The notes below the pieces were generated by a model. That model worked only from the letters and a program-made list of their open reading frames with translations, was not told the origin of the DNA and ran no database searches. 14,742 nt of DNA from Clostridiaceae bacterium (GTDB taxonomy: Bacteria; Bacillota; Clostridia; DSM-8532), in the NCBI GenBank assembly GCA_012842645.1, contig DUSJ01000343.1:1-14742 (forward strand), written 5' to 3'. Below, piece by piece: positions 395 to 1,738 of the stretch (positions are counted from its first letter, which is position 1; the number at the start of each line of letters is the position of its first letter). The position numbers and the translations under genes were made by a program.

Positions 395-408
395 CGAACA
401 TATATTCT
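395..408. promoter_or_regulatory. Candidate LexA (SOS) box 1
   Basis: The sequence CGAACATATATTCT matches the Gram-positive LexA/DinR consensus CGAACRNRYGTTYC at 12 of 14 positions, by my own comparison. It lies about 20 bases upstream of the likely -10 element of the radical SAM gene, where the -35 region would be, and shares an exact GAACATAT with the second box 45 bases downstream. Together with that box it forms an AT-rich inverted repeat (about 399-416 against 434-449) around the promoter. Binding has not been shown. Confidence 0.5.
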
Positions 409-425
409 TTTTTATCGGCTTATGC

Positions 426-431
426 TAAAAT
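426..431 (+). promoter_or_regulatory. Candidate -10 element of the radical SAM operon
   Basis: TAAAAT preceded by TGC (423-425) gives an extended -10 element, with an expected transcription start near 438. No good -35 hexamer lies at the right distance; the best options are T-rich stretches around 403-413. The alternative hexamer TAAGAT at 431-436 is also possible. The element lies between two candidate LexA boxes, which would place the operon under SOS repression. Confidence 0.45.
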
Positions 432-439
432 AAGATAAA

Positions 440-453
440 AGAACATATGTTTC
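440..453. promoter_or_regulatory. Candidate LexA (SOS) box 2
   Basis: The sequence AGAACATATGTTTC matches the Gram-positive LexA consensus CGAACRNRYGTTYC at 13 of 14 positions; only the first C differs. It starts at about the expected transcription start and ends immediately before the ribosome binding site GGGAGGA (454-460), so a bound repressor would block initiation. This is the stronger of the two boxes. The regulated gene is predicted to act in DNA metabolism, which fits SOS control. Confidence 0.65.
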
Positions 454-463
454 GGGAGGAATT

Positions 464-1738
464 ATGCGGCTTCTTGAAAAGCTCCAGGTCCTTGCTGATT
501 CGGCGAAGTACGATGTTTCCTGTTCATCGAGCGGCAGCAGCCGCGCGGGCAGAAAAGGCCAGATAGGCAACACAGTCGCAGCGGGCATCTGTCATACATG
601 GACTGATGACGGGCGCTGCATATCGCTGCTTAAGGTGCTCTTAAGCAACTGCTGCATCTATGACTGCAAGTATTGCGTAAACCGTGTGACCAATGACATA
701 AGAAGGGCTACCTTTTCTCCCGAGGAGCTCTGTTCCCTTACTATCGAATTCTACAGGCGGAACTATATAGAAGGTCTCTTCCTGAGTTCTGCCGTCCTGA
801 AGAGCCCCGATTATACCATGGAACTCATGATCAGGGTCCTGAAGAAGCTCAGGCACGAGTATGGATTTAACGGATATATTCACATCAAGTCCATTCCGGG
901 CGCGGACCTGCGCCTGGTCTGCCAGGCAGGTCTGCTGGCCGACAGAATGAGCGTAAATATTGAGCTTCCATCAGTACAGGGTCTTAAGCTTCTGGCGCCC
1001 CAGAAGGATTACGAATCAATAATCACTCCCATGGCATATGTGAAAGAGCAGATACAGGAATCCAACGCGCTGACTGTATACAGAAAGAGAGAGATGTTTG
1101 TTCCGGCAGGCCAGACTACACAGCTGATAGTAGGAGCCACCAGGGACAGCGATCTCACCATAATGAACCTGACCCAGAGCCTGTATGACAGGTATAGGCT
1201 CAAGAGGGTGTACTACTCGGCATATGTGCCTGTGAATGCCGATGAAAATCTTCCCGCAATAACCACCGGCCCGCCTCTCCTGCGTGAACACAGGCTTTAC
1301 CAGGCCGACTGGCTCCTTAGGTTCTACGGTTTCAGGGCTAACGAACTCCTGAACGAGAGCCACACCGACTTCGATGTCAGGGTGGACCCGAAATGCGACT
1401 GGGCAATCCGCAATATCGACAAGTTCCCCGTCGAGATCAATAAAGCCCCGCTCGAAATGCTGATGAGAGTGCCGGGAATAGGCTATAAAATGGCTGAGAA
1501 AATCGTGAGGGCAAGACGGATAGCCCCGCTGTCTTTTGAAGATCTGAAAAGGATGAGGGTCGTTCTCAAGCGGGCGCGATATTTTATTACCTGTAAAGGC
1601 AAATACTATGGGGGCATTGATATCGACAACGAAGACCTTTACCGGGTCCTCTCCGAGGAAAAGCCTTCAAAAACTATCCCTGGCCAGATTTCCATGTTTG
1701 AGAATACTACCGGTGATCCTTCTCTTCGCTCAGGATGA
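464..1738 (+). CDS. Radical SAM protein, putative DNA modification/repair (UDG-linked type)
   Basis: The 424-residue product has the radical SAM 4Fe-4S motif CxxxCxxC at C64, C68 and C71 (CCIYDCKYC), preceded by the family-typical N-terminus AKYDVSCSSSGSSR. A central TIM-barrel region contains HIKSIPGAD (about 140-148). The C-terminus carries a helix-hairpin-helix motif around 327-360 (LMRVPGIGYKMAEKIVRARR), a non-sequence-specific DNA-binding element. Length and motifs fit the TIGR03916-type 'rSAM_link_UDG' family, which occurs beside a DUF4130 protein that is sometimes fused to uracil-DNA glycosylase. The following gene is that partner. The reaction is unknown; repair of a damaged or modified base is inferred. 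The start ATG has GGGAGGA at 454-460, closely spaced. The last residues (GDPSLRSG) are encoded by a common palindromic repeat, so the native tail may have been replaced. Confidence 0.88.
   Translation: MRLLEKLQVLADSAKYDVSCSSSGSSRAGRKGQIGNTVAAGICHTWTDDGRCISLLKVLLSNCCIYDCKYCVNRVTNDIRRATFSPEELCSLTIEFYRRNYIEGLFLSSAVLKSPDYTMELMIRVLKKLRHEYGFNGYIHIKSIPGADLRLVCQAGLLADRMSVNIELPSVQGLKLLAPQKDYESIITPMAYVKEQIQESNALTVYRKREMFVPAGQTTQLIVGATRDSDLTIMNLTQSLYDRYRLKRVYYSAYVPVNADENLPAITTGPPLLREHRLYQADWLLRFYGFRANELLNESHTDFDVRVDPKCDWAIRNIDKFPVEINKAPLEMLMRVPGIGYKMAEKIVRARRIAPLSFEDLKRMRVVLKRARYFITCKGKYYGGIDIDNEDLYRVLSEEKPSKTIPGQISMFENTTGDPSLRSG
1716..1736. repeat. Short palindromic repeat overlapping the end of the radical SAM gene
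   Basis: ATCCT (1716-1720) and AGGAT (1732-1736) form inverted arms around an 11-base loop. The sequence resembles the 'GATCCTTCGCTTCGCTCAGGATGA' kind of repeat that I recall from intergenic regions of many bacterial genomes (the loop here reads TCTCTTCGCTC). It supplies the last residues and the TGA stop of the radical SAM gene. The family assignment is from memory. Confidence 0.45.

Follow-up and report, generated by a model that had tools for sequence, protein, structure and literature searches.

The window analysed here is a stretch of 14,742 nucleotides from a Clostridiaceae bacterium (contig DUSJ01000343.1 of assembly GCA_012842645.1). Close to its beginning lie a gene for a radical SAM protein (rSAM) and a gene for a DUF4130 protein, both preceded by a promoter region in which two LexA-type boxes can be recognized (Table 1). 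TIGR03916 was the sole NCBIfam family that rSAM matched at E <= 0.001, and no match to a model of spore photoproduct lyase (SplB) appeared at that threshold. Domain searches with rSAM yielded HhH_3 at 32 bits and Radical_SAM at 25.5 bits, the latter under its cut-off of 29.5. The helix-hairpin-helix that a preliminary description of the locus had ascribed to the gene product is recovered as PF12836, and a search of the PDB sequences connects it with the ComEA-related chain 2duy (E 0.00078). The structure model of rSAM (pLDDT 80.5) matches the folds of HydE, biotin synthase, RimO, MiaB, lipoyl synthase and viperin-like proteins. Beyond the three cysteines of the CxxxCxxC motif, C20, C43 and C52 are Cys in 89/89 homologues. 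Extra N-terminal cysteines serve a second cluster in some radical SAM enzymes, and an auxiliary cluster held by C20, C43 and C52 is possible in rSAM as well.

Table 1. Features of the rSAM-DUF4130 locus, in window coordinates
Feature	Position	Strand	Basis or remark
LexA-type box 1, CGAACATATATTCT	395..408	.	over the -35 region; ranks second of all window sites by matrix (13.0 bits)
Extended -10, TGC-TAAAAT	423..431	+	read from the sequence; TGnTA kept in 25/25 aligned promoters
LexA-type box 2, AGAACATATGTTTC	440..453	.	ranks first of all window sites by matrix (15.5 bits); kept in relatives
Shine-Dalgarno-like GGGAGG	454..459	+	abuts box 2 downstream; read from the sequence
Radical SAM protein TIGR03916 (rSAM_link_UDG), 424 aa	464..1738	+	657 bits, cut-off 343.5
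CxxxCxxC iron-sulphur motif (C64, C68, C71)	653..676	+	invariant in 89/89 homologues
Helix-hairpin-helix, residues 322-362	1427..1549	+	PF12836, E 1.3e-7
QISMF, residues 408-412, candidate beta-clamp-binding peptide	1685..1699	+	disordered tail; definition from PMC12309361
DUF4130 / TIGR03915 protein, 244 aa	1869..2603	+	TIGR03915 254 bits (cut-off 112); DUF4130 164 bits (cut-off 27)

The promoter and its two boxes

According to the preliminary description, two LexA-type boxes, matching the Gram-positive consensus at 12 and 13 of 14 positions, bracket a -10 element. These counts are correct, since box 1 differs from the consensus CGAACRNRYGTTYC by two mismatches and box 2 by one, and the extended -10 lies between the boxes. 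Plain counts of consensus matches were nevertheless dropped as evidence, because chance matches are frequent at three mismatches: the window holds 39 matches at that tolerance against 26.4 expected, a number that was reached by 3 of 200 shuffles. A matrix was instead built from 64 sites before the lexA and recA genes of family members only (17 of 30 lexA loci and 17 of 27 recA loci, the latter contributing 17 sites), with the rSAM sites themselves excluded. It ranks box 2 and box 1 as the top two sites of the window, followed by a site at 9.1 bits, and random sequence attains scores as high as theirs 16 times (box 2) and 43 times (box 1) per 10 Mb. The view that the boxes are chance matches might draw on the 39 occurrences just mentioned, but at their matrix scores boxes 2 and 1 would be expected only about 0.0002 and 0.0004 times per 100 bases, and they are conserved across orthologues; we regard coincidence as extremely improbable.

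The -10 element was not listed by a simple promoter scan of the window, and the promoter to which it belongs has no good -35. The element was examined in an alignment of rSAM promoters from 25 of 30 relatives' loci, which were chosen by hand and include the window. In 25/25 of these promoters an equivalent of box 2, with a AACATATGTT-like core, is found about 7-15 bases past the -10, at a position that in the window would correspond to the start of transcription. A box-1-like element occupies the same position in 11/11 of the aligned promoters from the same genus, in forms that range from GAACATATTTTC to AAACATATGTTT. The eight promoters from genera g2, g4 and g6 lack this element and have a TTG-type -35 (TTGATT, TTGCAT or similar), placed 17 bases ahead of the -10. 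Box 1 therefore looks like a genus-level addition that became superimposed on the -35. In either promoter layout a repressor, once bound, would presumably stand in the way of the polymerase.

Based on these comparisons, and on those described in the next section, we consider it very probable that the segment from 395 to 464 is a LexA-repressed promoter of an rSAM-DUF4130 operon. One LexA dimer would sit on the -35 region (box 1) and a second on the start site (box 2) of the extended -10 promoter, and the bound LexA would hold the operon off. DNA damage would then lead, by way of RecA filaments, to the self-cleavage of LexA, whereupon rSAM and DUF4130 would both be made. Binding, repression, induction and co-transcription at this promoter are what we infer from the arrangement of its sites.

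LexA-type sites in the genome, its relatives and other lineages

The assembly from which the window comes amounts to 2.06 Mb in 469 contigs and is 86.9% complete. Its own recA gene carries an exact GAACAAATGTTC 20 bases upstream, a box of the type seen in the rSAM promoter; by the preliminary description, a different box there would have spoken against SOS control. The genome's uvrA is preceded at 88 bases by GAACATATGTAC (one mismatch), and its DEAD_2 helicase gene by an exact GAACATATGTTC located 46 bases before the ATG taken as its likely start. A search of the assembly, at its completeness of 86.9%, yielded no lexA gene, but 13/13 congeners have one; a match to the S24-peptidase family in the genome was rejected as LexA, since the frame resembles, by eye, a signal peptidase. 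The four same-genus lexA promoters that were scanned (L022, L025, L030 and L032) have three boxes each at no more than one mismatch. Among family and class relatives taken together, the lexA promoters show a box at this tolerance in 29 of 30 cases and two or more boxes in 24. For recA, whose starts were placed by rule, 2 of 27 loci were left out because the search motif was missing; 21 of the remaining 25 promoters have a box, exact in 19.

Counted over the whole genome at up to two mismatches, GAACATATGTTC is not enriched, with 89 occurrences versus 93 for a reversed control; at up to one mismatch it occurs at 11 places, 5 of them within long reading frames. Genome-wide there are 18 occurrences of GAACN4GTTC and 67 of its reversed control. 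Of 16 places that were viewed in context, several fall within reading frames or upstream of other genes, one of which encodes an ArsR-type regulator. This gene has an exact GAACAATTGTTC 25 bases upstream (L166 1501-1512; G000:C196:2940-2951), probably as its own operator.

These palindromes raise the question of whether the boxes might be operators of some other regulator that shares the ACATATGT core, their likeness to LexA sites being incidental. In favour of this it can be said that the box-1 form AAACATATGTTT, present in several promoters of the genus, is two mismatches away from GAACN4GTTC, and that palindromes such as the one before the ArsR-type gene need not all be LexA sites. Nevertheless the box form recurs before the genome's own recA and uvrA and before the lexA genes of relatives, and the orthologues in Alphaproteobacteria and in one betaproteobacterium carry very different sites that match LexA motifs. 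We therefore hold the involvement of another regulator to be very unlikely.

The comparison of orthologues was made on overlapping sets of genomes. The best 30 matches were retained as the loci of relatives, and with the window included their rSAM promoters have a site at no more than one mismatch in 27 of 30 cases, 28 of 30 passing 11 bits. A larger clostridial set comprised the best 80 of 188 loci, of which two had no upstream sequence and were left out. Among the other 78, a box at no more than one mismatch was found upstream of 58 and an exact box upstream of 21. Dinucleotide shuffles of the same sequences gave means of 4.9 and 0.24 (largest values 10 and 2), stretches inside the rSAM gene gave 9/78 and 1/78, and neighbouring genes 7/259 and 1/259. 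Two further Clostridia from a plasmid collection (L203 and L204) also have boxes at no more than one mismatch. The 20 clostridial orthologues of this set, drawn from the best 80 of 188 loci, upstream of which such a box was not found include nine with a two-mismatch look-alike within 80 bases, for example GTACAAATGTTT; a search of the nearby upstream sequence of the other 11 revealed nothing convincing. Two of these 11 have a more distant box: in L145 it is exact and located 1263 bases upstream, in front of the gene preceding rSAM, and in L142 it has one mismatch and is located 275 bases upstream. In a group of gut Clostridia (L094, L096, L097, L098, L102, L105, L108, L113, L123, L131 and L151) G[T/C]AC-wwwT-GTT[T/C]-like sites are seen upstream of rSAM at the position expected of the LexA box, and these might perhaps be recognized by a LexA of shifted specificity.

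The sites before more distant orthologues were sought in 13 proteobacterial loci, hand-picked from 158 plasmid records for spread over genera; the starts in L199, L202, L203 and L236 were set by hand, as those records have no annotation there. Betaproteobacteria use a CTGT-N8-ACAG form of LexA site. The single betaproteobacterium sampled has an exact CTGT-N8-ACAG, the form of the E. coli operator, before rSAM. The published LexA motif of Alphaproteobacteria is GTTC-N7-GTTC (PMC8565304), and its opposite-strand reading, GAAC-N7-GAAC, is present in exact form in 12/12 of the alphaproteobacterial rSAM promoters sampled, with its first base no more than about 45 bases from the start; it occurs in 0/12 in-gene stretches and has a mean of 0.05 in shuffles that preserve letter content only. 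Two Bacteroidota promoters and one from Fusobacterium contain no exact match to the motifs tried: in those of Bacteroides and Fusobacterium none of these motifs was seen, and that of Spirosoma has the Gram-positive form only, at one mismatch. The preliminary description had named an enrichment of LexA-type sites upstream of orthologues as support for its claim, and most of those scanned do have them (58/78 for the clostridial promoters among the best 80 of 188 loci, and 12/12 for the alphaproteobacterial ones). Such a site, tracking the LexA motif of each lineage, is strong evidence for SOS control. Together with the matrix, the comparison upholds SOS control of the rSAM/DUF4130 promoter as that description had proposed it.

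For this family, SOS control has precedents. The COG to which the rSAM (TIGR03916) family belongs is, as we take it, COG4277. SOS control of a COG1573-COG4277 operon has been described in Bacteroidetes, in a paper that also cites it for Verrucomicrobia and Alphaproteobacteria (PMC8565304). That system resembles the one in the window in being a two-gene operon with predicted LexA control and a tie to UDG-based repair; it differs in its LexA motifs, GGA-N5-TCC and CTAA-N5-TTAG as opposed to GAACN4GTTC, and in a partner called a UDG (COG1573; PMC8565304), whereas the DUF4130 protein of the window is without a UDG domain. What can be added here is the clostridial case, the clamp-type tail described below and the three extra invariant cysteines. 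The radical SAM protein of the Gram-positive core SOS regulon is presumably SplB-like, unlike the family in the window. The account of that regulon, drawn from seven species of Firmicutes and Actinobacteria, names a radical SAM protein of unspecified family, and the lineage of the window is absent from those seven species (PMC7739468). Compared with the motifs searched in a study of the LexA regulon in C. difficile, GAACnnnnGTTT and GAACnnnnGTTC, box 2 is an exact match and box 1 has a single mismatch; the term "radical SAM" is absent from the main text of that report (PMC4234289). Within the literature searched the clostridial case seems to be unreported, and it extends a known pattern. With it, a widespread radical SAM family would be placed firmly within the clostridial SOS response, and one gene is seen with three kinds of LexA site across three lineages.

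Products of the probable operon and their possible roles

The DUF4130 gene is probably the second gene of the rSAM operon. DUF4130 comes after rSAM, in the same orientation and often with overlapping frames, at 75 of the best 80 of 188 clostridial loci; of the five lacking it, four break off within about 450 bases, so that L089 alone offered room for it. A single rSAM-DUF4130 transcript is likely in general and is not certain in the window, given a gap of 130 bases between the genes, inside which the promoter scan listed no promoter-like match. The gene next to rSAM is annotated as UdgX family in 9 of 10 annotated alphaproteobacterial loci and also in Caballeronia, and the single UdgX-type partner that was scanned, from Azospirillum brasilense, consists of DUF4130 plus UDG. 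At the tenth alphaproteobacterial locus, that of Azospirillum sp. TSA2s, an oppositely oriented TnpB gene occupies the position of the UdgX partner (L243 1846-2397). In the Bacteroidota and Lachnospira loci TIGR03915 is a stand-alone gene.

The structure model of DUF4130 (pLDDT 91.8) led, in a fold search, to DHH phosphoesterases (RecJ, Cdc45 and NrnA), and its DGSFEG resembles by eye the DxDxDG of DHH proteins. A profile comparison of DUF4130 with DHH gave no support, and a PDB sequence search with DUF4130 returned no relative at E <= 1. A DHH/RecJ relationship is a weak lead drawn from the model.

Residues 400-424 of rSAM form a tail that is disordered in the model and poorly conserved except for a pentapeptide of the QLSLF type. 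Its relaxed form is present in 72 of 86 homologue tails, against 0.36 expected from shuffled tails that preserve letter content only, and the strict form QL[SD]LF in 36; the remainder of the homologue proteins contains none. The 14 exceptions consist of 12 near variants (QLRMF, QLKLF, QLLLDF, QLALL, QIFMF, QISML and others), the poor L117 and L128, whose frame is without a normal tail. The proteobacterial tails all finish with QLxL and then F, L or I (13/13). The bacterial clamp-binding consensus is given as QL[S/D]LF or QxxLF, and the QADMF of E. coli Pol III alpha is among the listed binders (PMC12309361). The likeness of rSAM to proteins with a beta-clamp-binding motif, such as B. subtilis PolC (PMC12309361), lies in a short C-terminal peptide of the QLSLF type; in the window this candidate peptide is QISMF, with M at position 4. 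Among the matches listed by a search of a single literature collection, judged partly by title and abstract, none joined a radical SAM protein with the clamp. The pentapeptide is a lead, a candidate for a clamp-docking peptide.

What the products might do is a separate matter from how they are controlled. SOS regulons hold kinds of genes other than those for repair, and the suggestion in the preliminary description that SOS control would be direct evidence for a role in DNA repair is too strong. We can tentatively picture, with somewhat less than even confidence, a radical SAM enzyme active in the repair or processing of a damaged base; its helix-hairpin-helix would hold it on DNA and its clamp-type tail would bring it to replication forks, with DUF4130 assisting in the handling of the lesion or the product. 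A more specific form of this proposal, in which a damage-induced, clamp-docked rSAM with a second Fe-S site at C20, C43 and C52 processes base lesions at forks, its operator having been re-made where the LexA motif changed, is likewise put forward as a possibility that falls short of an even chance, because QISMF in the window departs from the strict motif, and in its two nearest relatives the peptide reads QIFMF and QISML. It is also conceivable, if on the doubtful side, that the operon is under SOS control while its products serve some purpose other than repair, such as the modification of nucleic acids or proteins, or the promotion of mutagenesis or lesion tolerance. NCBIfam words the function of TIGR03916 as putative modification/repair, the fold matches of rSAM span radical SAM enzymes of many kinds, and DUF4130, for which links to SplB-like proteins and UDGs are described, has been termed a predicted mutagenesis-related enzyme (PMC3765255). 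Against these stand the helix-hairpin-helix motif, the clamp-type tail and the UDG-fused partner in Azospirillum, which suggest work on DNA while leaving the reaction open. For the proposal of a repair or processing enzyme at the fork, the clamp-type tail makes the enzyme's place of action simple to test, and the extra invariant cysteines hint at its mode of action.

Right behind the DUF4130 gene, a 6S RNA (RF00013, 58.8 bits) occupies positions 2706-2917 of the window on the forward strand, preceded by a promoter-like TTGAGT-17-TATAAT at 2665-2693.
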